Shown: positions 6,144-34,199, numbered from the stretch's first letter. The stretch: 64,000 nt of DNA from Clostridia bacterium (GCA_017524725.1 JAFXUZ010000039.1:1-64000); one strand, 5' to 3'. Notes: a model not told the origin generated them from the sequence alone. Made by a program: numbers and translations.

Positions 6144-8009
6144 ATGAAGATAAAAAGGTTTGCCATCGTGCTTGCGGCAGTCCTGACGGTGCTGATGGCG
6201 GCCGTACCCGGTGAAGCGCCGGCGGCGGGCCGTTACAACTTCGTGGACGACGAGCGCTATGACATGGCCGGCAACCGGTGGGGCTCCGCCGCGGACCGCA
6301 TTGATGAATTCCTGGACCAGGCGTTTGAATACTACCTGGCGGGAGATACCGGGAATGCCTATGACTGTGTCAATAACGCTTATTTCTGTGTTTATGAGAC
6401 CACGGGTTTCGAGCGGCAGACCATGACCTATGTCTCCGGCCCCAGGAAAAACGCAGTGGAACTGCAGTTCACCACCTGTAAGCGGGCTGTGAAAAATTCC
6501 GATCTCAGTGAAGAGACCCAGATGGCCGTGAAGGCGGAACTGAACAAGCTCAAGGCCATGATCAGGGAAGACGCCAACAAACTGGCTGCCAGAATGGACC
6601 CCCCGCAGCCTGAGACAGGGATCTCTTTCTGGCAAGGCGGCGTTCGGGCCGCATCGGACCCTTGGGCTTCCCTGGCCGGAGAAGGTTCCCTCTCGCACTA
6701 CAAGTCATGGACTGAAGCCGCGGAAATGATCTTTGCCCTGATCGATACGGCGGAGGAAGCTTATGGCGGCCGTGACTATGGAACTGCCCTGGACAACATC
6801 AACACCGCGTATTTCTCGGTCTATGAGGAATCAGGCCTCAGCCGGAAGATATATACCGCGCTCGGCACGGATGAAAGGTTGGCTGCGGACGCGGCCTTTT
6901 CAGCCCTGCGGGCAGTCCCGGAGGAAGCGTTGGAGAGTGGAAAATATAAATCGAATCCATGGAAAACCGCGCGCAACTCCCTGAAAAAGGCGGTCCGCAC
7001 GGCGGCTGCCCGCATAGATGAAATGGAAGCGCCGGCGGTGTCCGGATCTGAGGAGAATGACACGGCAGCATCTCCCGCTGCCAATACGGCGGATGCGGCT
7101 CGGTGGGCCAATTTCTGGGGAGCGTTCGGGATCATCGTCCGTGAAGGCCTGGAAGCGATCCTCGTTATCGCGGCCATCATCGCTTACCTGGTCAAAAGCG
7201 GCAGCCGCGGCAGTCTGAAGCATGTTTATGCCGGCACGCTTGTCGGCATCACGGCAAGTTTCGCCGCCGCTGCGGCGCTGTATTTCATCAAACAGGCTGC
7301 GGTGGCCGGAGGCATGGCTCAGGAACTGATCGAGGGCATTACCGCGCTCATAGCGGTTTGCGTGCTGTTCTATGTTTCCAACTGGATGATCTCCAAATCC
7401 GAGGCTGCCGCATGGACGGGGTATATTGACAGGAAAGTTCAGGCGGGCGTGGAGAAGAGGTCGGCGTTCACCCTGGCTTTTACCGCCTTCCTCGCTGTTT
7501 TCCGTGAAGGCGCCGAGGTGGTGCTGTTTTACCAGCCCATGCTGTTCGGCGACGACGCCTCCCATGTCAGCATGGTGATCTGGGGATTCCTTGCCGGATG
7601 CGTCCTGCTGGTCTTTGTCTACCTGGCCATCACAAAGCTGTCGGTCAGGCTGCCCATCAAGGTGTTTTTCACGGCCACATCCATCCTGATGGCTGTTATG
7701 TGCGTGGCGTTTCTGGGCTCCGGTATCAAGGAACTGTCGGAAGGCGGCGCGTTTGAGGTGGTAAGCCGGGTGGAGGGGATCCCTGAGAATGACGCAGTGC
7801 AGATCCTGGGGATCTATCCTTACCTGGAGACGCTGCTGCCTCAGCTGGTCCTTGCGATCATCCTGATCATCACATTCCTGTGCGCGCATTACCGTGGTAA
7901 GCTTAACGCCCAGCGGCAGCGGTACGAGGAAAAACTCGCAGAAGCTGAAGGCGTCCGCGCATCAGGCATAAAAGAAAAAACCTCGCCGAAAGCGGTCCCT
8001 GCGGGATGA
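6144..8009 (+). CDS. FTR1-family iron permease with duplicated N-terminal domain
   Basis: A 621-residue protein with a signal peptide (residues 1-28), an extracytoplasmic region (about 30-315) and an FTR1/EfeU-like membrane domain (about 320-600). The membrane domain carries both iron-transport signature helices: VREGLEAILV near 332 and FREGAEVVLFYQ near 453. The extracytoplasmic region contains two related copies of a helical unit, each with an NAYF-x-VYE or NTAYF-x-VYE segment and a following helix. The role is high-affinity iron import through the cytoplasmic membrane. It is the first gene of the operon that continues with P19, DUF2318 and ABC components. I prefer ATG 6144, which begins a canonical signal peptide, over 6078. 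Confidence 0.85.
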   Translation: MKIKRFAIVLAAVLTVLMAAVPGEAPAAGRYNFVDDERYDMAGNRWGSAADRIDEFLDQAFEYYLAGDTGNAYDCVNNAYFCVYETTGFERQTMTYVSGPRKNAVELQFTTCKRAVKNSDLSEETQMAVKAELNKLKAMIREDANKLAARMDPPQPETGISFWQGGVRAASDPWASLAGEGSLSHYKSWTEAAEMIFALIDTAEEAYGGRDYGTALDNINTAYFSVYEESGLSRKIYTALGTDERLAADAAFSALRAVPEEALESGKYKSNPWKTARNSLKKAVRTAAARIDEMEAPAVSGSEENDTAASPAANTADAARWANFWGAFGIIVREGLEAILVIAAIIAYLVKSGSRGSLKHVYAGTLVGITASFAAAAALYFIKQAAVAGGMAQELIEGITALIAVCVLFYVSNWMISKSEAAAWTGYIDRKVQAGVEKRSAFTLAFTAFLAVFREGAEVVLFYQPMLFGDDASHVSMVIWGFLAGCVLLVFVYLAITKLSVRLPIKVFFTATSILMAVMCVAFLGSGIKELSEGGAFEVVSRVEGIPENDAVQILGIYPYLETLLPQLVLAIILIITFLCAHYRGKLNAQRQRYEEKLAEAEGVRASGIKEKTSPKAVPAG

Positions 8010-8114
8010 CCTGCGTCTTCCGGGAGGTCCGCGACCCCGCTGCGGATCCCGCCCGTAAGCATATACTGAACAAATGGTTTTCGGTACTTTCCAAAGAAGA
8101 AAAGGAGGATATCC

Positions 8115-8672
8115 ATGATGAAAAAACTGTTTGCCCTGCTGATTGCCGCTATGATGCTGTTTGCCGTTTCCGCCCTGGCGGAAGACGAAGCCGGTTTTGA
8201 AGAATTCCCGATCGGTGACGAGCAGGATGTAGGTCCCGATTCGATCATCCATATTGCCGCTGTTTATTTCCAGCCCGTGGTGATGGAGCCTGCCGCCGAG
8301 GCCGGCCTCAGCGTCGAGGAAGCCAACATCCATATCGAAGCTGATATCTCCGCCAACGAGAACAGCCTGGGTTACGGCGTGGGCGACTGGATCCCCTATC
8401 TGACCATCGATTACAAGGTGGTTGACGCGGACGGCAAAGTATACTCCGAAGGCACCTTCATGCCCATGGCGGCTTCTGACGGCCCCCATTACGGCGCCAA
8501 TATCAAGCTGGATGTGGACGGCGTGTACAGCCTGGTGCTCACCATCCACAGCCCGGCGGAAAACGGTTACCTGCTGCATGTCGACCCTGAGACCGGCGTG
8601 GAAGGCCGCTTCTGGTCCGAGCCCATCGAAGTGACCTTTGAGGGATGGGAATACTTCGTGCAGGAATGGTGA
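8115..8672 (+). CDS. P19-like periplasmic-type Fe2+ transport protein
   Basis: A 185-residue exported protein (signal peptide MMKKLFALLIAAMMLFAVSA) of the P19/FtrA iron-binding family. Family landmarks are a Met in VVMEP, NIHIEADISA, WIPYLTIDYKV, then MPMAASDGPHYGANIKL and a late His in LLHVDP. In the characterised homologues of Campylobacter P19 and E. coli FetP, the Met and His residues form the copper/iron site. It probably delivers iron to the FTR1 permease just upstream. A GGAGG site precedes ATG 8115. Confidence 0.85.
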   Translation: MMKKLFALLIAAMMLFAVSALAEDEAGFEEFPIGDEQDVGPDSIIHIAAVYFQPVVMEPAAEAGLSVEEANIHIEADISANENSLGYGVGDWIPYLTIDYKVVDADGKVYSEGTFMPMAASDGPHYGANIKLDVDGVYSLVLTIHSPAENGYLLHVDPETGVEGRFWSEPIEVTFEGWEYFVQEW

Positions 8673-8702
8673 TCCGGCCGGACAGACAAAGGCTCATCCC
8701 GA

Positions 8703-8739
8703 GCCGGCGCGAATCTCCGCGGGGGAGATTCGCGCCGGC
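8703..8739. repeat. Perfect 16-bp-stem hairpin between P19 and DUF2318 genes
   Basis: GCCGGCGCGAATCTCC, a 5-base loop GCGGG, then the exact reverse complement. No U-tract follows, so full termination is doubtful. It could stabilise the FTR1-P19 part of the transcript or partially reduce expression downstream. Confidence 0.6.
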
Positions 8740-8793
8740 CATTGTGTGCTGTAATCCTACTGTTAAATTCCTTGCTCATCGGAGGTCACTGAC

Positions 8794-10299
8794 GTGCTGC
8801 TCCATATGTATAAGGTCCCCGAAACCCTTTTCATTATCGTAACAGTCATCACAGTGCTGTTCGCCCTCGCAAAAACCAATGCGGGCAAAACGGGAAAAAA
8901 ATTGATGCTGGCAGGGATCGGCCTGGGCCTGGCTCTGGCTGTGCTCCGGGCTGTTACGCATGAGTTTCCGGCGTTCTTCTTCCCGGACAAAAAAGCCGTT
9001 CCGGATACGCAGATCAACCTGTATCTGTGGTATGCCGCCATGGGTATCCTTGTACCCCTGCATATCATGGCTTCCGTTTTTTCCCGTGAAAGGGGATCGC
9101 GTACCGGAAAAACGGCCGTATGTGCGCTTTCCGGCCTGCTTGCGGCCGATCTGATCGCTTATAAAGCCTGGGCGGTTATTTGGGCTCCCCGGGATTTTGA
9201 GATGGGGGACAACGGGATCCTTTCAGACGTGTTCCTGCTTCGTCTGGCCGGCTGGCTGACAGGCCTCATCCTGCTGGCGGTCTATGCCTGGTTCCTGTAT
9301 AAATGCTGTATGCGCCTGAGCGAGATCAGCGTGCTGTGGAATGACCGGGACTGCCGGCCCGTCAGCGACGGACGCTGGGTGCTGCGTCTTACCGCGGCGT
9401 TGATGACGTTTGCGCTCTTCTTTGTTTTTTACGGCATGATCCTGCAGCAGTGGACAGTGAAAACACGGCCCGGATGGATCCCGGCGCTGTTCCCGAGACT
9501 GAACGCGGAAACTTTCCTAAAGTTCACTGTGCGCAACAACGCGAGCGCCGGCGGGGCGCTTTTTCCCGGGTGGAAATGGTATATGGCGAGCGATCACACG
9601 AAAGGCGGGTATCTTGAAAACGGGGTCTTTATCCTGCTGTTATATGCGCTGATGGCCATGATCCCGCCCGCTGTGCTCTTCCTGAGAAGCCTGAGGATCC
9701 GCGGAATCTGGCGAAATGCGGCTGAAAAGAGACGCCTGCGCTCAGACAACCGGCACAGCCGCAGATGGGCAGCCGTTGTGCTCTTTTCACTGACTGCCGT
9801 TATGGTCAGCCTGACGGTGGTTTACGAGATCTGCAACCGTCCGCCGCCCGTTCCTGAGGGAGAGACTTACGCAATCGTCTTTATCGGGGAGGACGGAGCG
9901 GAGAGTGAGATCGAAGCCGTCGATGTAAAAAACTACGACACCTCTCGGATCGAGGTCCGCATCCCGCTGGGGCAGGTGGATGATTTCAACCTCCACGCGT
10001 TTGAAATGAACCGCTCCGGTTCGCCGAACAAGGCGCCGCGTGTCCGTTGGATCGTGATCCGGAAGCCAAACTCCGCTGCATATGGGGTCGGGCTGGACGC
10101 GTGCGACGTCTGCGGAAGCGCCGGTTATTTCCAGAGGGGGGACACTGTGGTCTGCAAGCGCTGTGATGTGGTGATGAATACCAACACCATCGGCCTTGCG
10201 GGAGGCTGCAATCCGATCCCCCTGGCTTTCCGGGTGGAGGGCGGAAACATCGTCTTTGCCATGGACGACCTGATCGCGGGCGAAAAAGAATTCAAGTGA
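8794..10299 (+). CDS. DUF2318 membrane protein of the iron-uptake operon
   Basis: A 501-residue polytopic membrane protein with about eight hydrophobic helices and a C-terminal extracytoplasmic DUF2318 domain. That domain carries the conserved cysteines DACDVCG (about 435-441), CKRC (about 452) and GGCNPIPL (about 471). DUF2318 proteins accompany FTR1/P19 systems (Campylobacter Cj1660, E. coli FetM region). The cysteines suggest metal binding or electron transfer, which has not been proven. The start is GTG 8794 with GGAGG eight bases upstream. Confidence 0.8.
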   Translation: MLLHMYKVPETLFIIVTVITVLFALAKTNAGKTGKKLMLAGIGLGLALAVLRAVTHEFPAFFFPDKKAVPDTQINLYLWYAAMGILVPLHIMASVFSRERGSRTGKTAVCALSGLLAADLIAYKAWAVIWAPRDFEMGDNGILSDVFLLRLAGWLTGLILLAVYAWFLYKCCMRLSEISVLWNDRDCRPVSDGRWVLRLTAALMTFALFFVFYGMILQQWTVKTRPGWIPALFPRLNAETFLKFTVRNNASAGGALFPGWKWYMASDHTKGGYLENGVFILLLYALMAMIPPAVLFLRSLRIRGIWRNAAEKRRLRSDNRHSRRWAAVVLFSLTAVMVSLTVVYEICNRPPPVPEGETYAIVFIGEDGAESEIEAVDVKNYDTSRIEVRIPLGQVDDFNLHAFEMNRSGSPNKAPRVRWIVIRKPNSAAYGVGLDACDVCGSAGYFQRGDTVVCKRCDVVMNTNTIGLAGGCNPIPLAFRVEGGNIVFAMDDLIAGEKEFK

Positions 10300-10315
10300 A
10301 GGAGGGGAACGCGGC

Positions 10316-11614
10316 ATGCTGTTTCGGATGATCAAAGGCGCATTGGTGAGGCAGTGGAGCAAAATGCTGCTTATTGCGCTGACGATCGCGCTGGGAGCCT
10401 CTCTGGCCACCTCCATGATCAACGTTATGCTGGACGTCGGAGACAAGGTCAATGAGGAACTGAAGGCCTATGGCGCCAATATTGTCGTAAAGCCCAAGGC
10501 TTCCTCCCTTCTGTCGGAGATCTACGATGTCGAGGATGAAGGAACGGAGCTGCAGCAGGCCTGGCTGAAGGAGGAGGAGCTCGGCAATCTGAAAACCATC
10601 TTCTGGGCCTTTAATATCCGTGATTTCGCTCCTTTCCTCAACGTGAGCGCCAGAATAGGAGAAGAAACAGTCCCTGTTACGGGGACCTGGTTCAACCATC
10701 ACCTGTCCCTGCCCACGGGGGAGGAACTGGACGCCGGTGTCCGGAGCCTGCGCTCCTGGTGGGATGTTCCAAACGAAGACTGGATCGACGAACAGGCTCC
10801 GGGTGCTGAGAGGGAGATCATGGTAGGCACCGCGCTTGCGGAAAGGATGGGGATCAGGGAAGGCGACTCCCTCATTCTGACGGGAACGGCTTCGGAAGCC
10901 AATGTCACGGTACGGGGCATATTCGATTCGGGCGACAGCGCCGACGAGCAGGTCTGGGCGCCTCTGGACCTTGCACAGGAGCTGGCGGGACTGGAGGGCA
11001 AGGTGGCCTCTGTCGAGGTCAGCGCCATTACGACTCCGGACAATGACCTGGCCAGGCGTGCTGCCCAGAACCCAAAGGCGCTTTCCCGCGCCGATTACGA
11101 TACCTGGTACTGTACCGCTTATGTAAGCGCGGTCTGCTATCAGATCACCGAGGTCATTACGGATTCCGCCGCCTCCGCGGTCCGCCAGGTGGCGGAGAGC
11201 GAGGGCGAGATCCTGAACAAGACAGAGCTTTTGATGATCCTTATTACCGCGCTGAGCCTTGTCGGCGCCGCGCTGGGCATTTCGAATCTGGTGACCGCTT
11301 CGGTCATGGAACGGTCCCGGGAGATCGGCCTGCTGAAAGCTGTCGGAGCCCACGACAAAGCCATTACCTGCGTTGTTATGGCTGAGATCCTTTTGACGGC
11401 CATGGTGGGCACGGCAGTCGGTTATTTTGCCGGCCTCGGGATGGCGCGGTTCATCGGCAGGCAGGTGTTCGGCTCGTCCATCGATATTAAGGCAGTGGTC
11501 ATTCCTGTGGTGGCGGTGCTGATCTCCCTGGTGACTATAGCGGGTTCACTGCCGGCCATCCGCATGATCCTGCGGCTGGATCCGGCTGAAGTGCTCCACG
11601 GCAGCAAGGCCTGA
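10316..11614 (+). CDS. FtsX/MacB-like ABC transporter permease (iron operon, 1)
   Basis: A 432-residue permease with one N-terminal membrane helix (about 17-37), a long extracytoplasmic MacB-PCD-like domain (about 40-300) and three C-terminal helices in an FtsX domain (SREIGLLKAVGAHDKAI). Such permeases usually act mechanically rather than as substrate channels. It lies 16 bases after the DUF2318 gene with its own GGAGGGG site. It probably pairs with the permease at 11632 and the ATPase at 13125. Confidence 0.85.
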   Translation: MLFRMIKGALVRQWSKMLLIALTIALGASLATSMINVMLDVGDKVNEELKAYGANIVVKPKASSLLSEIYDVEDEGTELQQAWLKEEELGNLKTIFWAFNIRDFAPFLNVSARIGEETVPVTGTWFNHHLSLPTGEELDAGVRSLRSWWDVPNEDWIDEQAPGAEREIMVGTALAERMGIREGDSLILTGTASEANVTVRGIFDSGDSADEQVWAPLDLAQELAGLEGKVASVEVSAITTPDNDLARRAAQNPKALSRADYDTWYCTAYVSAVCYQITEVITDSAASAVRQVAESEGEILNKTELLMILITALSLVGAALGISNLVTASVMERSREIGLLKAVGAHDKAITCVVMAEILLTAMVGTAVGYFAGLGMARFIGRQVFGSSIDIKAVVIPVVAVLISLVTIAGSLPAIRMILRLDPAEVLHGSKA

Positions 11615-11631
11615 GGAAGGAGGCACGTACA

Positions 11632-13122
11632 ATGAGCAAACGCAGAATGTTTTTTCGGATGATCACCGCCTCCCTCCTGCGCCGCAGATCAAGGATGCTG
11701 ATCGCCCTTCTCTCCATCGGTATCGGCGCGACGATCCTGGCAGGCCTGGTAACGGTTTATGTGGATGTACCCAGGCAGATGGCGGCACAGTTCCGCTCCT
11801 ACGGAGCGAACATGCTGCTGGTGCCTTCCGGATCCGTCCTGACGCAGGAAGAAGCGGACGACGCAATGGCGCTGATCCCTGAGGAAGAACGGGTGGGAGC
11901 CGCGCCTTACAGGTACGAATACCTGAACATGGTGCGCCGACAGCAGTCTTTTGCCGCGGCGGGCACAGACTTTGATCAGGTAAAGCGCACCAGCCCTTAT
12001 TTTAAAGTAAACGGCCGCTATCCCGAAAGCCCAAGGGAGGTGCTGGTCGGAAAAGGCGTGGCAGATACCGTCGGCGCGAGGCTGAACGGGGTGATGGAAC
12101 TTACATGGTTCCCGCCGAGCACACAGGAGGAGGATCAGGGGGACGCTGATTTTGACATCCGTCCGGGAATGACGCTTGCGGGGCACGCCCAGGGGTATGG
12201 CAGCCGGGAAGGGTTTAATGACAATCCGGTGTATGTGACCTTCACCGTTGGCGGGGACGGCACCATCGCTTCTATTAGTGTGGATACTTCCAGTGAGACG
12301 GCAGGCGTCGGCACCCGGTGCAGCGAAGAAGCGTTCACGGACCTGTTTATTGGGAAAAAACCAAAGGATCTGGTTTTGGGCAGGGATGTGGACGCAGTAT
12401 CCGGCGCCACTGTGACATCGGCGGCTGTCGTACAGGCTATCGCTGACGCAAGGCCTGTGACGGATGAAAGTGCGGCTCTTGTTCCCCGCACGATCAACTA
12501 CGCGGTGGTCGGCATCCTTGAGACCGGCGGGGAGGAAGAAGGATACATCTATATGTCCCTGGATGATATGGGTGTGATCACAGGCACATCGGACCAGCTG
12601 GACCTGGTGGAGCTTTCCGTCTCTGCGACCCAGGACAGCCTGGAACGCTATGCGGAAGAGATAACGGCGTCAGGCCATGCCACCGCTCGCTTGGTGAAAC
12701 GCGTGACCAAATCAGAGACCGCGGTTCTGGGCAAGCTGCAGGCGCTGGTCTTCCTGGTGACCATTGTGGTCCTGGTGCTGACCATGGTGAGCGTTTCGAC
12801 TACCATGATGGCGGTGGTCACCGAACGGCGCAGGGAGATCGGCCTGAGAAAGGCTCTTGGCGCGCCTGACAGCGCCATCCGCGGGGAGTTCCTTGGTGAA
12901 GGGCTGTTCCTCGGAGCGCTTGGCGGGCTGCTCGGCGCGGTGCTGGGATTTGTATTTGCGCAGGTCGTCAGCGTGAACGTTTTCGGATCAGACATCCGGT
13001 TCAATTTCTGGCTGCTGCCGATCACGGTGCTTGTGTCCATGGCGGTTGCCGCACTCAGCTGTCTGATGCCCGTCAGGCGTGCGGTGGCCATCGACCCGGC
13101 GCTGGTTCTGAAAGGAGAATGA
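11632..13122 (+). CDS. FtsX/MacB-like permease with inserted FMN-binding domain (iron operon, 2)
   Basis: A 496-residue permease with the same topology as its neighbour. Between about residues 178 and 283 the extracytoplasmic domain contains an insertion that matches the FMN_bind family (RnfG/NqrC C-terminal type). A VYVTFTVGGDGTIASISV strand pair and ETAGVG (cf. ETPGLG) precede DAVSGATVTS at 254-263. In that family the Thr of SGAT (here T260) is the residue to which ApbE attaches FMN. The domain is absent from the 10316 and 14208 permeases. This suggests an extracytoplasmic redox step, such as ferric reduction, built into the transporter. The C-terminal FtsX helices are normal (RREIGLRKALGAPDSAI). 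Confidence 0.85.
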   Translation: MSKRRMFFRMITASLLRRRSRMLIALLSIGIGATILAGLVTVYVDVPRQMAAQFRSYGANMLLVPSGSVLTQEEADDAMALIPEEERVGAAPYRYEYLNMVRRQQSFAAAGTDFDQVKRTSPYFKVNGRYPESPREVLVGKGVADTVGARLNGVMELTWFPPSTQEEDQGDADFDIRPGMTLAGHAQGYGSREGFNDNPVYVTFTVGGDGTIASISVDTSSETAGVGTRCSEEAFTDLFIGKKPKDLVLGRDVDAVSGATVTSAAVVQAIADARPVTDESAALVPRTINYAVVGILETGGEEEGYIYMSLDDMGVITGTSDQLDLVELSVSATQDSLERYAEEITASGHATARLVKRVTKSETAVLGKLQALVFLVTIVVLVLTMVSVSTTMMAVVTERRREIGLRKALGAPDSAIRGEFLGEGLFLGALGGLLGAVLGFVFAQVVSVNVFGSDIRFNFWLLPITVLVSMAVAALSCLMPVRRAVAIDPALVLKGE

Positions 13123-13124
13123 CC

Positions 13125-13799
13125 ATGAGTCTGCTTGATATCCGCAATGTATCCAAAATATACGGCGAGCTGAAAGCCCTGGACAACGTGAGCATCCGGG
13201 TGGATCAGGGGGAATGGGTGGCCATCATGGGGCCCTCGGGCTCCGGAAAATCCACAATGATGAACATCATCGGCTGTATGGACAAGCCCACCAAAGGCCA
13301 GGTATTCCTAGACGGTATTGACATCGCAAAGGAATCCTCCAGACGCCTGACCGACATCCGCCGGGACAAGATCGGTCTCATTTTTCAGCAGTTCCATATG
13401 GTCAACTATCTGACGGCCGTGGAAAATGTAATGGTTTCCCAGTACTATCACTCCATGCCCGATGAGGCTGAAGCACTGGAAGCCCTGGAAAGGGTGGGCG
13501 TTCGGGAGCGGGCAAGGCACCTGCCCAGCCAGCTTTCCGGCGGTGAGCAGCAGCGTGTATGCGTGGCCAGGGCCCTTATCAATCACCCTGAACTGATCCT
13601 TGCGGACGAACCCACCGGAAACCTGGATGAGACCAACGAAAACATCGTTCTGGACCTGTTCCGCCAGCTTCATCGGGAGGGAACGACCCTGATCGTCGTG
13701 ACTCATGACCCGGAGGTGGCTGAGGCCGCCCAGCGCACCATCGTCCTGGAGCACGGACGGCTGGTCCGCGAGGTCGTCAACGAGCATTTTGTGGAGTAA
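13125..13799 (+). CDS. MacB/LolD-type ABC ATPase (iron operon)
   Basis: A 224-residue ATPase with Walker A GPSGSGKST, Q-loop FQQFHMVNYL, signature LSGGEQQRVCVARAL and Walker B LILADEP, followed by the D-loop GNLD and switch His in VVTHD. It should energise the FtsX-like permeases just upstream. I chose ATG 13125, seven bases after GGAG; the ATG at 13119 overlaps the previous stop and sits too close to the binding site. Confidence 0.9.
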   Translation: MSLLDIRNVSKIYGELKALDNVSIRVDQGEWVAIMGPSGSGKSTMMNIIGCMDKPTKGQVFLDGIDIAKESSRRLTDIRRDKIGLIFQQFHMVNYLTAVENVMVSQYYHSMPDEAEALEALERVGVRERARHLPSQLSGGEQQRVCVARALINHPELILADEPTGNLDETNENIVLDLFRQLHREGTTLIVVTHDPEVAEAAQRTIVLEHGRLVREVVNEHFVE

Positions 13800-13806
13800 A
13801 CATATT

Positions 13807-14211
13807 ATGAATAAAAAAGACATCGCATTCGGCTCGGCTGCGGCTTTCCTTGGCATCGTTCTGGCTGTCGGGGCCCAGACCTTTGCGCATCCCTGCGTGC
13901 ATGCGGACGGAAGCGCCGCTGTATGCGCCCCGGTAAAAATATGGCTGACGGTCATGGGCGGCGTTATTACCGCGCTGGCAGGTGTGTCCTTCCTTCGGCC
14001 TCATTGGGTGTCTCCATGCCTGACGGCTGCGGCGGCCATACTGGTGATCCTGATCCCCGGGTGTATCGTGCCTGTCTGCAGGGCGGATACGATGCGCTGC
14101 CGGCTGGTGACCTGTCCTACGGCGCTGGTTTCAGGTGTGCTGATCCTGGCTGTCTCGCTGTGGCGGCTCGCGCTGACCCTGAACGCAAAAAAACGGAGGG
14201 CCGGTTCATGA
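13807..14211 (+). CDS. DUF4418 membrane protein
   Basis: A 134-residue protein with four predicted membrane helices and a set of cysteines (HPCV, AVCAPV, GCIVPVCRADTMRC and VTCP) that match the DUF4418 pattern. The start is ATG 13807, and the stop overlaps the start of the next permease (ATGA). Its function is unknown. The family is often found beside DUF2318/P19 permeases, and conserved cysteines again hint at metal or redox chemistry. Confidence 0.7.
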   Translation: MNKKDIAFGSAAAFLGIVLAVGAQTFAHPCVHADGSAAVCAPVKIWLTVMGGVITALAGVSFLRPHWVSPCLTAAAAILVILIPGCIVPVCRADTMRCRLVTCPTALVSGVLILAVSLWRLALTLNAKKRRAGS

Positions 14212-15410
14212 CTCCGAGAAAACTGCCCATGAGGAATATCCTGCGGCATCCCGGACGCACCGCCTCCCTGACAGTGCTGGTCGCTTTTCTGGCGCTGTCG
14301 CTTTTTTCCGGATCGGTGATCGTCATGAGCCTGATGAGCGGGCTTCGCAGCCTTGAAAACCGTCTCGGTGCGGATCTGATCGTGGTTCCGGCCACAAGCC
14401 GCGGAAAGATCGACCCGGAGAAGATCTATTTGCAGGGTACCACCGGTTATTATTATATGAGCGCTTCAAAGCTGGATGAGGTCCGCGCCATGGAAGGGGT
14501 CGTTCAGGCTTCCGGGCAGGTTTTCCTGGCCAGCCTGCGGGCGGACTGCTGTTCAATGCCCATCCAGGTCATCGGCTTTGACCCGGCGACGGACTTTACC
14601 ATCCGCCCGTGGATCGGAGAACGGATGAAAACGGACCTGGGCAAAATGGAAGTGGCGGCGGGCAGCAGGGTAAATGCGGGGGTCAATGAGACGATACGCA
14701 TTTACGGACAGCCATGCCTGGTGGCGGCCCGCCTGGACGAGAGCGGCACCGGTCTGGATACTGCCGTTTACTGCACAATGGAGACCATGGCTGAGCTTTT
14801 GTCGGCAGCGCGGGAAATGAATCACGAACTGAAGATCGACGGCGACCCGGCCGGGGTCGTTTCAGCCATTTATGTGAAAACACACCCGGGCGAAGCGGAC
14901 CGGCTTGCGGGGGAGATCAGGCAGACGCGCAGCCCGAAAGTCACAGTTATTCAGACCCGGACGGTTACATCGGATGTGGAGCGTTCCCTTGGCGGTGTTT
15001 CACATACCATCGCTGTTTTGATTATTTGCGTTTGGCTGCTGGACCTGGTCCTGCTGACAGCGGCCTTCCTGCTGCTGGGAGGCGAACGCAGGCGGGAGTT
15101 TGCTGTCCTGCGTTCGCTAGGCATGTCCCGCAGGGACCTTGCTTATCTGGCGCTGAAGGAAGCGGCGCTGATATCCTTTTTCGGCGGAATGAACGGGATC
15201 TTCCTGGGACTGCTGATCCTGCTGCCGTTCTCGGGACTGATCGAGCAAGCCCTGGGACTGCCCTACCTGCGGCCCGGCTGGCCGACCATGCTTGCTTTGT
15301 GCGCTGCATCCCTGGCGGCGGTCTGCGCCGCCGGGCCTGGGGCAGCCCTGCTCTCCGCCCGGAAGCTTAGCAGGGCGGACATCGGCACGATCATGAGGGA
15401 GGGAACCTGA
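14208..15410 (+). CDS. FtsX/MacB-like ABC transporter permease (iron operon, 3)
   Basis: A 400-residue permease with an N-terminal helix (about 18-40), an extracytoplasmic domain (about 45-265) and three C-terminal helices around RRREFAVLRSLGMSRRDL. It lacks the flavin-binding insertion. It is translationally coupled by an ATGA overlap with DUF4418 and has GGAGGG upstream. It forms a second transporter pair with the ATPase that follows at 15412. Confidence 0.85.
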   Translation: MTPRKLPMRNILRHPGRTASLTVLVAFLALSLFSGSVIVMSLMSGLRSLENRLGADLIVVPATSRGKIDPEKIYLQGTTGYYYMSASKLDEVRAMEGVVQASGQVFLASLRADCCSMPIQVIGFDPATDFTIRPWIGERMKTDLGKMEVAAGSRVNAGVNETIRIYGQPCLVAARLDESGTGLDTAVYCTMETMAELLSAAREMNHELKIDGDPAGVVSAIYVKTHPGEADRLAGEIRQTRSPKVTVIQTRTVTSDVERSLGGVSHTIAVLIICVWLLDLVLLTAAFLLLGGERRREFAVLRSLGMSRRDLAYLALKEAALISFFGGMNGIFLGLLILLPFSGLIEQALGLPYLRPGWPTMLALCAASLAAVCAAGPGAALLSARKLSRADIGTIMREGT

Positions 15411-15411
15411 T

Positions 15412-16083
15412 ATGGAACTTGCCGCTTGCGGCCTTGCGAAGCGGTTTCGGCGCAATACGGGAGACGCCAATTTTTTAGAAGCCGTACACCCCGTTGACCT
15501 GACCATGCACAGCGGGGAGATGATGGTCCTTACAGGACGTTCGGGCAGCGGGAAAACGACACTTTTGACAATGCTGGCCGGATTGCTTCCTCCGTCAGAT
15601 GGGACCGCGGCGCTGGACGGGAAGGACCTGTACAGCCTGTCCGACGCCGGGCTTTCACGTATGCGGGCCCGGCACTTCGCCGTGATCCCGCAGGGAGCTT
15701 CGGCTGTCACTTCCATGACCGTGATGGAAAACATCCTGTTCCCTGCCTCACTGGCCGGAAAAGACCCTCCTGTCCGGCAGGCTGAGACCCTCATGGAACG
15801 CCTGGGGATCCTTAAGCTGCGCAATGTCTGGCCAGGAGAGCTATCAGGCGGAGAACTACGCCGAATGTCCATCGTACGAGCCCTGGCCGCGGGACCTGAT
15901 TTTGTTTTTGCTGATGAACCCACCGCCGATCTCGACGACGGGAACACAGCCCTGACGCTGGGGATCCTGAAGGAAACGGCATTGGAGGGATCTGCGGTTT
16001 TTGTGGTAACACATGATCGGGAAGCCGCCGCTTATGCCGACGTCCTTTTGCGCATGGACGCGGGGAAACTATATAAAATATGA
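15412..16083 (+). CDS. ABC ATPase, second of the iron operon
   Basis: A 223-residue MacB/LolD-like ATPase: Walker A GRSGSGKTT, signature LSGGELRRMSIVRAL, Walker B FVFADEPTADLDDG and switch VTHD. It begins one base after the permease stop (TGATATG), with GGAGGG upstream. It is distinct in sequence from the 13125 ATPase, so the operon encodes two ATPases and three permeases rather than one duplicated pair. Confidence 0.88.
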   Translation: MELAACGLAKRFRRNTGDANFLEAVHPVDLTMHSGEMMVLTGRSGSGKTTLLTMLAGLLPPSDGTAALDGKDLYSLSDAGLSRMRARHFAVIPQGASAVTSMTVMENILFPASLAGKDPPVRQAETLMERLGILKLRNVWPGELSGGELRRMSIVRALAAGPDFVFADEPTADLDDGNTALTLGILKETALEGSAVFVVTHDREAAAYADVLLRMDAGKLYKI

Positions 16084-16201: not shown

Positions 16202-16230
16202 TTCACAACAAACGGCATTTGTGATATCAT
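16202..16230 (+). promoter_or_regulatory. Promoter for the STAS-kinase cassette
   Basis: TTCACA (16202-16207), a 17-base spacer and TATCAT (16225-16230) preceded by TG-A (extended -10). The spacer contains a CACAA/TTGTG dyad that could be an operator. The same TTCACA-17-TATCAT pattern recurs at 19840. Confidence 0.6.
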
Positions 16231-16319: not shown

Positions 16320-17495
16320 ATGGCGACGAAGAAACTGGATATCAGGCTGTCAGGAAGGCTGGATACGACAAACACCGCCGAGTGGTTTGAAAAGATCTCT
16401 GCCGATATCAGGGAACAGTCGGCGGATGAACTGGCCATCGACTGCAGCGAGCTGGAATATATATCCAGCACCGGGCTGCGCGCTTTGATCATGATCATAA
16501 AGTCCGGCTGTAAAGTATACTGCTTCGGAGTATCACCGACAGTCTACGACATTTTTGAAGTAACGGGCCTGACAGCCCTGATGGACGTCCAGAAGGCTTT
16601 CAGACGGATCCACCTGGACGACAGCGCGCTGATGGCAAAGGGTACGGTCGGCATGATATACCGCCTGGACGAAGACAGGGTCGTCAAGGTATTCAACCAG
16701 AAGGTGACCATCGATATCATCCGGCGGGAGAGGAAATTCGCGCAGAAGGTGCTCCTTTCCGGTATCCCGACCGTGATCTCCTATGACATCGTTCAGGTAG
16801 ACGACTGCTACGGCATCATCTTTGAAATGGCCGGAGCGGAGGAATTCTCCAGGAAACTGGACCAGGCGCCGGAGAAGTTCGACGAACTGGCGGCCCTGTA
16901 CGCCGGCCTTCTGAAGCAGATCAATCAAACACCGGTGGGAAAGGACGTCCTTCCGGAAGCCAAAGATATTTATCACGGGTATGTGGACGGTTCTTCGGCG
17001 TTCCTGAGCGGGACGGAAATGGAGGCGCTTCACGGCCTGATCGACAGCGTGCCGGACCGGGATACGATGCTGCACGGGGATTATCACGCCAATAACCTGA
17101 TGTTCCAGGGGGATGAACTGATGCTGATCGACCTGGGGGACGTTTCCCGGGGGCATCCCATCTTTGACCTTGCGGGCATGTATGTTTCCCATATCCTTGT
17201 GGGTTCCTATCAGCCGGCATTTATCAAGGCGGGCATGGGCATCGATATCGAGGTCTGCCGAAGGCTGTGGGACAGGGTCCTCCGGCTTTATTTTCCCGGT
17301 GAACCGGAAAGCGGACTCAAGCGGAAGGAGGACCTGATCCGCCGCTTTGCCCACCTGAAGCTTGCGGTCATGTACGCGATCGCCCCGGGCCTTGAAAACT
17401 ATCTGACATGGAAACCCCTGGAAGACGCACGGACAATCATTTTTCCCGGTCTGGATGAGCTGAAAGCCGATCTTGAAAAGGACGACCTTTGCTGA
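16320..17495 (+). CDS. STAS domain - APH-like kinase fusion
   Basis: A 391-residue fusion. Residues 1-95 are a STAS domain (anti-anti-sigma type) with the phosphorylatable segment LEYISSTGLRAL (Ser49/Ser50). Residues about 100-391 are a TIGR02172-like APH/choline-kinase domain: AKGTVGMIYRL, catalytic LHGDYHANNLM near 251 and LIDLGDVSRGHP near 272. STAS domains normally bind RsbW-type kinases, and such an ATPase domain is encoded two genes downstream as part of the MATE fusion. I infer a partner-switch that controls the kinase or co-localises it with the transporter. The substrate is unknown. Confidence 0.85.
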   Translation: MATKKLDIRLSGRLDTTNTAEWFEKISADIREQSADELAIDCSELEYISSTGLRALIMIIKSGCKVYCFGVSPTVYDIFEVTGLTALMDVQKAFRRIHLDDSALMAKGTVGMIYRLDEDRVVKVFNQKVTIDIIRRERKFAQKVLLSGIPTVISYDIVQVDDCYGIIFEMAGAEEFSRKLDQAPEKFDELAALYAGLLKQINQTPVGKDVLPEAKDIYHGYVDGSSAFLSGTEMEALHGLIDSVPDRDTMLHGDYHANNLMFQGDELMLIDLGDVSRGHPIFDLAGMYVSHILVGSYQPAFIKAGMGIDIEVCRRLWDRVLRLYFPGEPESGLKRKEDLIRRFAHLKLAVMYAIAPGLENYLTWKPLEDARTIIFPGLDELKADLEKDDLC

Positions 17496-17509
17496 CGGAG
17501 GGATAAAGA

Positions 17510-18010
17510 ATGAGTGAAAAAGAAAAGGTCGTGGTATTTATGGGCTCCTTCAATCCGCCGCACTACGGTCATCTTTTGTCGATCGACAGGATCCTGGCGA
17601 TAAGAAAGGAATTGCACCTGTTTGTCCGCTACAACGAAGGAGTCGACCTGACAAGCCGCGATATGAAAATGAAATGGTTTGAAAAGATCAGCGCCGACCG
17701 GGATCACAGGGTCCACGTCCATATGTTTTCCACGGACGATTTTAAAGGAAAATCCTATACGGGGAACATTTTTGCGTCGTTCATCCGCCTGTTCGAGGAG
17801 ATGCTGGACAGGCCGATCGATGAGGTATGGGTCGGGGAGGATGGCGTGAAGCTGGTGGAGGCGACCCGTGACCAATTCCCCAACATCTCTTTCCGAATCT
17901 GCGAAAGGGTGTGCAATTCCACGGCGATCCGGGAGGATTTCGAAGGACATAAAGACTGGCTACCGGACTTCATCCGTGAGGATCTGGCACGCATCCTGAA
18001 AGAAGAATGA
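17510..18010 (+). CDS. HIGH-motif nucleotidyltransferase (NMNAT/cytidylyltransferase-like)
   Basis: A 166-residue Rossmann-type nucleotidyltransferase. The N-terminal VVVFMGSFNPPHYGHLLS contains the HxGH signature, and CNSTAIRE near 143 corresponds to the C-terminal ISSTxIR motif. This fold adenylylates or cytidylylates a phosphorylated small molecule. Between a small-molecule kinase gene and a transporter gene, it may act on the product of the kinase (kinase, then nucleotidyl transfer, as in choline or pantetheine pathways); that is inference. Its stop overlaps the next start (ATGA). Confidence 0.75.
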   Translation: MSEKEKVVVFMGSFNPPHYGHLLSIDRILAIRKELHLFVRYNEGVDLTSRDMKMKWFEKISADRDHRVHVHMFSTDDFKGKSYTGNIFASFIRLFEEMLDRPIDEVWVGEDGVKLVEATRDQFPNISFRICERVCNSTAIREDFEGHKDWLPDFIREDLARILKEE

Positions 18011-19773
18011 CGGTGTTTCAGACAAAAAAACGCGATACGGTAGAGAAGCTGTTTGTAAGCCTGATCGGCGTACAGATGCTCTCATTTATTTCCCAGATCA
18101 TCGCCAACGTGATCGACGCTATTGTGATCAAGCGATGCCTGGGCTCGGAGGCCATGGCTGCTTTTTCTTTCGCCAACACGGCGACCAGCATCGAGATGGC
18201 AGTGTTCGGGTTCCTGATGACGGGCGTTTCCGTCCTGCTCTCCAGAAACGCGAACGAACAGGACGGGAAAAAACGAGATGGAGCGTATTCGACGGCAGTC
18301 GTTCTGTCACTTGCGCTGGGCGCGGTCCTGATGATTCTATATCTGGCGGCGTCAGGGCATATTGCGAGGCTGTCCGGTGCGCCGGAGCATCTTCAGGGAC
18401 CCGCGGCCGAATATATCCGGGGCAATGCCCTCGGTATCCTTCCGTACCTGCTCTTTGCCGTGCTTTCGGGAACGGCGCTGGTCAGCGGCAGAAGGAAGCA
18501 GTTGATGCTGTCCTTTACCCTGATGGCGGCGGTCGACATCGTATTGGATCTGCTCAACGGTTATGTGGTCCATAGGGGGCTTTGGGGCATGGGAGCCGCA
18601 ACGGCCGCCAGCCAGCTTGTCGGTTTTGCCGCTGTGTTCTTTTTACGCCGCGGGAAAAAACGCATTTTCCGTTTTGTGCCGGGTCTGTTCCGTTTTTCCT
18701 TTGTGAAGGACATCTTCGTTTACGGTTATATCTATGTGGTCAAACAGCTGATGATCACGGCGCTGGGTTATATTTATAACAACTTTATCACGCGCAGGTA
18801 CGGTCCGGATCTTCTGGCGGTATACGCATCGACTCTGTCCGCACTGTCGCTTCTGCAGTGCATGTCTTCCGCTATCGGGAACACGGTATCCACGTTGACC
18901 GGCTTCTATGGAAAGGAGGAGGACGGAACCTCCCTGAAGAGCCTGATGAGGGCGGCCGTGAAATATTCCGTCCTGTTCAACGCCGCGATCATGCTTATCG
19001 CGCTGCTTGCCGCCTCTCCCATCATGACCATGTTCTATAAAGCCGGGGACAGTTCCTTTGGCACGGCTGTCATGGGGCTGCGCCTTTTCTCGCTGTCGAT
19101 CGTTTTCCGCAGTATCAACATGTCGCTCAGGGGATACTACCAGAGCATGAAGATGCAGGTGTGCAATATCATTTTCACTTTTTTGCATATCCTGGGATGC
19201 GAGGTGATTTGCCTCTTTGCCATGAACGGGCTGATCGGCATACCGGGCATATGGCTGTCCTTCCCGTTGGGAGAGTGCCTTGCCCTGCTGAGCATGTTTG
19301 CCTTCCTGAGCATCCGCAGAGGTGAAAAGCGTTTCCCGGATGTGCTGATGCTTTTGCTCCCGGCCTTTCAGGGAGCAACGGCTCCCGGACTGGACGCGTC
19401 GTGTCATTCCGCAGCCGAGGTGATGGATTGTTCCAGGACGGTCGCCTCGTATTGCGAAAGGGAAGGGGCGTCAAAGCGGGCAGCGGGTATCCTTTCCCTT
19501 GCGGTGGAGGAGATTGCAGGCAATATTGTAAAATATGGATTTGATGACGGCAGGCCCCACAGCATAAATATACGGGTAAAAAAGAATACCGACGGCTGGA
19601 TCCTTCGGTTTCATGACGACTGCCGCGGCTTTGACCCGACGAAATACCTGCGGGAACCCGAAGCCCCGGGAGAGCACAACGGCATTCGGATGATCCGCGG
19701 ACTTGCCTCGGAGGTTTCTTACACAAACGCCCTGGGACTCAATCACCTGCTGATCAGCGTTAAACAGTCCTGA
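18007..19773 (+). CDS. MATE transporter fused to RsbW-like HATPase domain
   Basis: A 588-residue fusion. Residues about 10-440 form a MATE/polysaccharide-flippase-type transporter of about twelve helices. Residues about 460-588 are a HATPase_c_2 (anti-sigma/RsbW-type Bergerat) domain: N-box LAVEEIAGNIVKYGF, G1-like FHDDCRGFDP and G2-like GIRMIRGLASEVSY. The join is continuous coding sequence without stop or frameshift. RsbW-type domains phosphorylate STAS proteins on Ser; the STAS domain encoded at 16320 is the obvious partner. I have not seen this fusion described with certainty; its job may be to gate export by phosphorylation. Confidence 0.85.
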   Translation: MTVFQTKKRDTVEKLFVSLIGVQMLSFISQIIANVIDAIVIKRCLGSEAMAAFSFANTATSIEMAVFGFLMTGVSVLLSRNANEQDGKKRDGAYSTAVVLSLALGAVLMILYLAASGHIARLSGAPEHLQGPAAEYIRGNALGILPYLLFAVLSGTALVSGRRKQLMLSFTLMAAVDIVLDLLNGYVVHRGLWGMGAATAASQLVGFAAVFFLRRGKKRIFRFVPGLFRFSFVKDIFVYGYIYVVKQLMITALGYIYNNFITRRYGPDLLAVYASTLSALSLLQCMSSAIGNTVSTLTGFYGKEEDGTSLKSLMRAAVKYSVLFNAAIMLIALLAASPIMTMFYKAGDSSFGTAVMGLRLFSLSIVFRSINMSLRGYYQSMKMQVCNIIFTFLHILGCEVICLFAMNGLIGIPGIWLSFPLGECLALLSMFAFLSIRRGEKRFPDVLMLLLPAFQGATAPGLDASCHSAAEVMDCSRTVASYCEREGASKRAAGILSLAVEEIAGNIVKYGFDDGRPHSINIRVKKNTDGWILRFHDDCRGFDPTKYLREPEAPGEHNGIRMIRGLASEVSYTNALGLNHLLISVKQS

Positions 19774-19899: not shown

Positions 19900-19923
19900 G
19901 GGGATCATGTCCCCGTTTTTTCT
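19900..19923 (+). terminator. Short terminator/attenuator hairpin before GH35
   Basis: GGGGA-TCATG-TCCCC followed by GTTTTTTC. It could end the MATE-HATPase transcript, or act as an attenuator in the leader of the promoter at 19840-19868. Confidence 0.6.
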
Positions 19924-33395: not shown

Positions 33396-34199
33396 ATGTG
33401 CGGCACCGGAGTAGCTGTGGCCAATGCAGTTCCGGACGTCCTTGAGATCGCGGACGATGTGACGCTGTCTAACGATCGGGACGGTGTCGCATTGTGGCTG
33501 AACTGCCGCTGCCTGTTTCCAAGCCTGCTTTCCTCCACATCCAACACACGGGATCTTGGCGGTATCCCGATATCTGACGCCGGGATGACCCGTAAAAACA
33601 GGATCTGGCGAAGCGACGCCCCGACAGTCCGCAGTTTACGGGACGTGGAACGGATGAGGTCTTTGGACATCACCACAGTGATCGATCTGCGCACGGTGCG
33701 GGAAGCGGAAAATAAGCCATGCGTCTGTGCAGGGTCAGACGGTTTTGATTATCACCATATTCCCATCACCGTCGGAAGCGTTCCTCCGGATACGCTTGAA
33801 GAGGTTCCCATTTCATATCTTGCCATCGCGGAACAGAAGGAGACGGCAGAAGCGCTCAGACTGATTGCCTGCGCAGAGTCCGGGGTCATGGTGTGCTGCA
33901 CCGCAGGAAAAGACAGGACCGGTGTGGTCAGCGCTTTGCTTCTTCTTGCCTGCGGCGCGGAGCGGGAGGCCATTGTGTCCGATTATGCTCTCAGCAGGGA
34001 ATATAACCGGATCCGGCTTGAAAAGTATCTGTACGATCATCCTGAGGTGGGCAGGAGGATCGTCCTTGCGAACGAGGCCAGCATGGAACGGTTCATCGCT
34101 CTGTTCCTTGAAAGGTACACAAGCGTCGGGGAGTTTTTCAGTCAGTCAGGCCTTTCATCGGCGCACCTGGCAGGGATTCGAAGAAAACTCCTCGGTTAA
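33396..34199 (+). CDS. Tyrosine phosphatase (Y_phosphatase3) with HAD C-terminal stub
   Basis: A 267-residue reading frame directly following the TAA. Residues 1-38 are the missing C-terminus of the upstream HAD domain. Residues about 48-267 are a PtpB-like tyrosine/lipid phosphatase: SNTRDLGGIPI, RSDAPT, VIDLRT and active site CCTAGKDRTG (Cys167 region). ATG 33396 lacks a ribosome binding site, so in the ancestral gene the two enzymes were probably one bifunctional polypeptide. Expression today would require reinitiation or readthrough. Confidence 0.75.
   Translation: MCGTGVAVANAVPDVLEIADDVTLSNDRDGVALWLNCRCLFPSLLSSTSNTRDLGGIPISDAGMTRKNRIWRSDAPTVRSLRDVERMRSLDITTVIDLRTVREAENKPCVCAGSDGFDYHHIPITVGSVPPDTLEEVPISYLAIAEQKETAEALRLIACAESGVMVCCTAGKDRTGVVSALLLLACGAEREAIVSDYALSREYNRIRLEKYLYDHPEVGRRIVLANEASMERFIALFLERYTSVGEFFSQSGLSSAHLAGIRRKLLG

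Follow-up and report, generated by a model that had tools for sequence, protein, structure and literature searches.

A three-gene cassette of rumen Clostridia with STAS-kinase and MATE-HATPase fusions, a candidate partner switch without a sigma factor

Genes and proteins of the cassette

The window considered here is a stretch of 64,000 nucleotides from a Clostridia bacterium (GCA_017524725.1, JAFXUZ010000039.1:1-64000). Three genes lie in tandem on its + strand between positions 16320 and 19773. The first (16320-17495; 391 aa) encodes a STAS domain fused to an APH/choline-kinase-fold kinase (“STAS-APH”), the second (17510-18010; 166 aa) a nucleotidyltransferase of the HxGH type, and the third (18007-19773; 588 aa) a MATE transporter fused to an HATPase_c_2 domain (“MATE-HATPase”). 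The first two genes are separated by 14 bp, and the second and third overlap by 4 bp (ATGA). A first-pass annotation of this DNA had described three tightly spaced genes with these domains, and ORF, Pfam and NCBIfam analyses agree with it to the base; the peptides that it quoted (LEYISSTGLRAL, LAVEEIAGNIVKYGF and DDCRGFDP) are present in the proteins.

Orthologous cassettes, collinear and with the same gene order and lengths, occur in two further MAGs (RUG13460 and RGIG6132), with amino acid identities of 83-91%. Across the three species, all from one rumen Clostridia genus, dN/dS is 0.11-0.16 for each of the three genes, i.e., the genes are under purifying selection, and because of the tight spacing and the overlap, we consider them to be one operon in all three species. 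No cassette was found in the remaining three genomes of the genus, of which two are incomplete; one of the three, G005, has the flanking GH35 and TPR genes but lacks the cassette itself. Since order and lengths are kept in the two MAGs, dN/dS is low, and other genomes of the genus lack it, we conclude that the operon is real, is being maintained, and is accessory in rumen Clostridia. An assembly artefact is ruled out by the orthologues in the two MAGs, together with the occurrence of the STAS-APH/MATE-HATPase pair in a single-contig genome (see below). A location on a plasmid or virus was also rejected: neither STAS-APH (P0001) nor MATE-HATPase (P0003) matched a plasmid, and no relative of STAS-APH was found in viral contigs.

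Consensus scans placed a promoter-like site upstream of the cassette (16202-16230, + strand; TTCACA-17-TATCAT, with TG before the second hexamer) and a terminator-like hairpin followed by a T-run downstream, before the GH35 gene (19900-19914, + strand), the number of sites in both scans being no higher than in shuffled sequence. Domain searches detected no sigma factor gene among the three genes or the adjoining genes examined. A PP2C phosphatase is likewise absent from the cassette, and the same genome has 11 PF07228 matches elsewhere; for this reason, the cassette is not self-contained, contrary to the first-pass annotation. Just upstream (6144-16083) lies an iron uptake cluster of the FTR1/Fe2+ transport protein/FtrD kind, which also holds three FtsX-like permeases, one with an inserted FMN-binding domain, and two ABC ATPases. 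Elsewhere in the window, at 868-1779 and 33417-34199, are a second APH-family kinase (a weak choline-kinase match) and a Y_phosphatase3 protein, enzyme types that are paired in STAS-APH loci outside the window.

In STAS-APH, the STAS domain spans residues ~5-95 (PF01740, residues 8-91, E 9.4e-13) and the kinase residues ~97-390 (PF01636, residues 119-301, E 3e-13). The STAS domain is of the RsbV/SpoIIAA type, having the STAS fold and a phosphorylatable serine before [S/T/A]G-L. Ser49 and Ser50 had both been put forward as phosphorylation sites. Ser50 aligns with the phosphoserine of SpoIIAA and RsbV, which we take to be Ser58 and Ser56, respectively, and is invariant in 60 of 60 STAS-APH proteins, whereas Ser49 falls on an Asp position; Ser50 is therefore the likely candidate phosphosite, judging from the alignment. 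The kinase has the hallmarks of the APH/choline kinase superfamily, i.e., the HxDxxxxN loop, distal Asp, beta3 Lys and helix C Glu: K123, H252, D254, N259 and D271 are conserved in 60/60 proteins, and E137 in 59/60. In an AlphaFold model (pLDDT 91.6, pTM 0.82), the kinase part matches choline/ethanolamine kinase 3dxq (Z 17.8), APH(3')-Ia (17.2) and LicA (16.9) equally well, with tied choline/ethanolamine kinase and APH structures spanning Z scores of about 15-18. The model says that the APH part is probably a small-molecule kinase, and the ties point to no single substrate. The best NCBIfam match of the APH domain is TIGR02172 (E 6.9e-30); however, with 104.5 bits against a cut-off of 228.2, and with the kinase part alone matching, the domain falls outside that family as defined.

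The middle protein matches CTP_transf_like (PF01467, E 1.5e-5) and TIGR00125, and TIGR01526 over its whole length. The earlier description of it as “HIGH-type” was loosely right, the actual motif being HYGH, with HKGH and HNGH in the orthologues. Both the HxGH and the STxIR motif (here NSTAIR) of NadR are kept, and the protein is collinear with the NMN-adenylyltransferase (NMNAT) domain of NadR proteins from related genomes, although identity is only 21-29%. The ORF ends where the P-loop ribosylnicotinamide kinase of NadR starts; it thus corresponds to the NMNAT domain and not to bifunctional NadR, and the cassette instead encodes an APH-fold kinase next door. The best structural match of its model (pLDDT 90.2) is NadR 1lw7 (Z 16.4), with PPAT/CoaD and NMNAT structures tied within Z 1. 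Motifs and model together make an adenylyltransferase more likely than a cytidylyltransferase. A cytidylyltransferase in a CDP-choline pathway (LicA-LicC-like) is not favoured, the nearest relatives being NadR and PPAT/NMNAT, though the APH fold ties with LicA. Close orthologues occur only in the three cassette genomes.

The third protein has a MATE domain (residues ~10-435) and an RsbW-like HATPase_c_2 kinase domain (~456-588). Two MatE repeats (PF01554 in two stretches, E 1.4e-22) and a whole-length match to solved MATE structures (4lz6, residues 10-431, E 3e-14) identify the transporter by sequence, and Asp37 of TM1 is kept in 45 of 52 MATE-HATPases. The HATPase domain (PF13581, residues 474-577, E 6.2e-10) has the N-box Glu and Asn and the G1 and G2 boxes of RsbW/SpoIIAB-type serine kinases: E501/E502 are conserved in 52/52 family members, N506 in 46/52, D537 in 49/52 and G559 in 51/52. 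The G1 box is degenerate (DDCRG vs DxGxG), and Cys is found there in 43/52 members. The single PDB match of the HATPase profile is RsbW (6m36, E 3e-4). The same genome encodes a second MATE-HATPase beside an ABC transporter pair (L090:3487-9663 on G000:C77; also L089 and L097); other genomes of the genus keep this arrangement, which in L090 and L089 includes a PP2C gene, and it gives the same switch another context without a sigma factor.

Recurrence of the two fusions

The first-pass annotation knew of no other system with this architecture. With strict thresholds, 125 of 308 genomes of the family have MATE-HATPase and 81 have STAS-APH, the latter list including some APH-only matches; both are found in 62 (a raw count that ignores kinship). 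Of 391 genomes sampled across the class, 21 (not counting the genome of the window) have matches that cover both STAS and APH, and 19 have MATE-HATPase; both fusions also reach into other families of the class. Thus, the fusions are not confined to this genome, and the finding that would have refuted the first-pass annotation, their restriction to one genome, is excluded. They belong to a single undescribed family of switches with a wide distribution.

We examined the neighbourhoods of about 95 loci, mapping domains with a simple codon-usage ORF caller and HMMs built from the window's proteins; loci were picked from the matches, so the fractions that follow are descriptive. Of 60 STAS-APH loci, 32 have a fused HATPase or, no more than five genes away on the same strand, a gene for a HATPase, PP2C or standalone STAS; PP2C is present in 20. 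A directly adjacent enzyme is also found in 32: HD_4 in 12, Y_phosphatase3 in nine, PHP in eight and the nucleotidyltransferase in three, all of one genus. Nucleotidylation as a general part of the pathway is therefore not supported. The HD_4 proteins (e.g., L118:8011-8634 and L136:8897-9493) resemble RelA/SpoT-type hydrolase domains, a possible link to nucleotide second messengers. Tandem alternation of STAS-APH and Y_phosphatase3 genes, with three and two STAS-APH copies (L123:5331-10680 and L217:5167-9415, respectively), suggests a repeated kinase/phosphatase pair.

MATE-HATPase lies near STAS-APH in 11 of the 60 loci, or nine if the three cassette orthologues are counted once. The arrangements vary. 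L205, in a single-contig genome from a different family, has MATE-HATPase directly followed by STAS-APH; HD_4 precedes STAS-APH and MATE-HATPase in L136; MATE, HATPase and STAS-APH are three separate genes in L125; and one cluster holds STAS-APH, MATE-HATPase and a PP2C-HATPase in L118 and L131. In eight loci, STAS-APH and HATPase form a single ORF, and L206 has the order PP2C, MATE-HATPase, STAS-APH-HATPase, PHP. A search for co-occurrence, proposed earlier, finds the two fusions as neighbours again in several lineages, frequently together with a SpoIIE/PP2C phosphatase, but the nucleotidyltransferase is confined to the genus. Two further kinds of protein were seen in such neighbourhoods. A family of ~200 aa (L092:536-1138, L236:6791-7378 and further loci) lies beside STAS and MATE-HATPase genes; the member scanned had no Pfam match, and in the N-terminal part the stretch LLAEEM is weakly reminiscent of the HATPase N-box. 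L119 (7501-10914) and L132 (7726-11091) encode, downstream of STAS-APH, proteins of ~1130 aa that carry a HATPase at the C-terminus.

On a tree of 51 MATE-HATPases, a STAS-APH neighbourhood requires at least 8 changes; the association has therefore been gained or lost repeatedly. Within the family but outside the genus, chance predicts about 0.5 pairs on the same strand and within 10 kb, against three in the thresholded lists (G322, G283 and, at 9 kb, G079; Poisson P about 0.015); further pairs occur in G323, G155 and four genomes of the class sample. These co-location statistics are support, not proof, for the pairing, because members of either family are mostly found on their own. Indeed, STAS-APH is absent from the surroundings of the largest MATE-HATPase clade (27 rows), and 49 of the 60 STAS-APH loci lack a MATE-HATPase in the vicinity, so the two families do not depend on each other.

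A proposed switch and its alternatives

Starting from the gene order, domains, conserved catalytic and switch residues, repeated co-location and natural STAS-APH-HATPase fusions, all observed directly, we propose that the cassette belongs to a sigma-factor-free partner-switching family of Clostridia in which the STAS-APH kinase is switched by a transporter-borne HATPase; we give this an even chance of being correct. By analogy with RsbV/RsbW and SpoIIAA/SpoIIAB, the RsbW-like HATPase that the MATE protein carries at its cytoplasmic end would bind the unphosphorylated STAS domain of STAS-APH and phosphorylate it on Ser50, releasing STAS-APH. A SpoIIE-type PP2C phosphatase, encoded elsewhere in the genome, would reset Ser50. 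STAS-APH would thereby cycle between a transporter-docked and a free form, with its kinase activity, or its access to a transported substrate, following the state of the transporter. In the cassette genus, the NadR-type adenylyltransferase may then act on the phosphorylated product. We take APH kinase activity or access to be the regulated output, with an even chance of being right; this choice of output follows from the kinase always being joined to the switch, while the MATE protein is optional.

That optional status bears on a reading in which control runs the other way: (de)phosphorylation of STAS-APH would gate the MATE protein, docked STAS-APH closing or opening transport and the APH reaction serving as a metabolic signal, much as MlaB acts on MlaFE. 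In its favour, the HATPase is covalently joined to the transporter, TM1 Asp37 is largely conserved, and the MATE domain matches solved MATEs over its whole length. However, in 49 of 60 loci there is no MATE-HATPase near STAS-APH, and in eight the HATPase is fused to STAS-APH itself, so the switch is invariably attached to the kinase. We regard reversed control as unlikely. Somewhat less probable, in our view, is that the wiring is incidental, with the HATPase of the MATE protein and the STAS domain of the APH protein each serving other partner-switch components of the genome, which has 11 PP2C matches and several HATPase and STAS genes. Further PP2C-HATPase-STAS clusters on contigs C65 and C56 of the same genome, and the lack of a PP2C in the cassette, fit this idea; arguing against it are the recurrence of the pair in several lineages (8 or more label changes on the tree), its adjacency in L205, and the tight, overlapping operon of three species.

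MATE proteins are mostly exporters. This weighs against a third alternative, salvage of an NAD-like cofactor, in which the MATE protein would move a nucleoside, the APH kinase would replace the P-loop kinase of NadR, and the NadR-type domain would adenylylate the product, while STAS and HATPase would only hold the enzymes at the membrane. The collinearity of the 166-aa protein with the NMNAT domain of NadR, up to the start of the P-loop kinase, is suggestive, as are its top structural match to NadR and a NadR gene that adjoins a PnuC-like gene in L108. However, PPAT/CoaD structures tie with NadR within Z 1, 57 of 60 STAS-APH loci lack such an enzyme, and the invariant Ser50 and HATPase Glu suggest real phospho-switching. 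We consider salvage improbable, slightly more so than incidental wiring.

Known partner switches and the place of the cassette

Like RsbV/RsbW/RsbU and SpoIIAA/SpoIIAB/SpoIIE of Bacillus, the switch proposed here would pair a phosphoserine STAS domain with an HATPase_c_2 kinase that has the N-box Glu and Asn, and SpoIIE-type PP2C genes occur in related loci. In contrast to those systems, no sigma factor was found, STAS is carried by an APH kinase and HATPase by a MATE transporter, and the cassette has no PP2C. With cognate sigma factor and PP2C both missing from it, the cassette is not a canonical sigma-factor partner switch, consistent with the earlier view of a switching pair placed on enzymes; the domains are as described, and the pairing recurs in other loci.

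Sigma-free switching is not new in principle, HsbA-HsbD and SypE-SypA being known already. In Pseudomonas aeruginosa HsbR-HsbA-HsbD, the phosphorylation state of a STAS protein controls a diguanylate cyclase, not only a sigma factor (PMC5085249, PMC6482189). An enzyme is the STAS target, as proposed for the cassette; however, a standalone STAS protein binds that enzyme, HsbR is a response regulator, and there is no transporter (PMC5085249, PMC6482189). In Vibrio fischeri, SypE acts as kinase/phosphatase on a serine of the STAS protein SypA, with no known sigma factor target (PMC4517449), but the STAS protein is single-domain and there is no kinase or transporter fusion. In MlaFEDB, the STAS protein MlaB controls a membrane transporter through binding (PMC7367683); that transporter is ABC rather than MATE, and the STAS protein lacks a fused enzyme. 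Among open-licence papers, we found none on the fusions, on TIGR02172, or on a MATE protein with RsbW. That literature thus describes neither a STAS domain joined to an APH kinase nor a MATE transporter joined to an RsbW-like kinase, nor their repeated pairing.

Partner switching is best known for sigma factors, along with a few enzyme targets such as HsbD. More tentatively, and with some doubt, partner switching may act across Clostridia directly and post-translationally on a small-molecule kinase, with the HATPase as part of a transporter, so that transport state determines phosphorylation of a metabolite or nucleotide signal, which neighbouring HD_4, PHP or Y_phosphatase3 hydrolases or the adenylyltransferase would then process; this would be a signalling family of a new, sigma-free kind whose output is a small molecule of its own. 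If true, it would provide a direct route from membrane transport to small-molecule phosphorylation, testable with soluble domains, and a regulatory role is suggested for APH-like and MATE-like genes liable to be annotated as antibiotic resistance or drug efflux.
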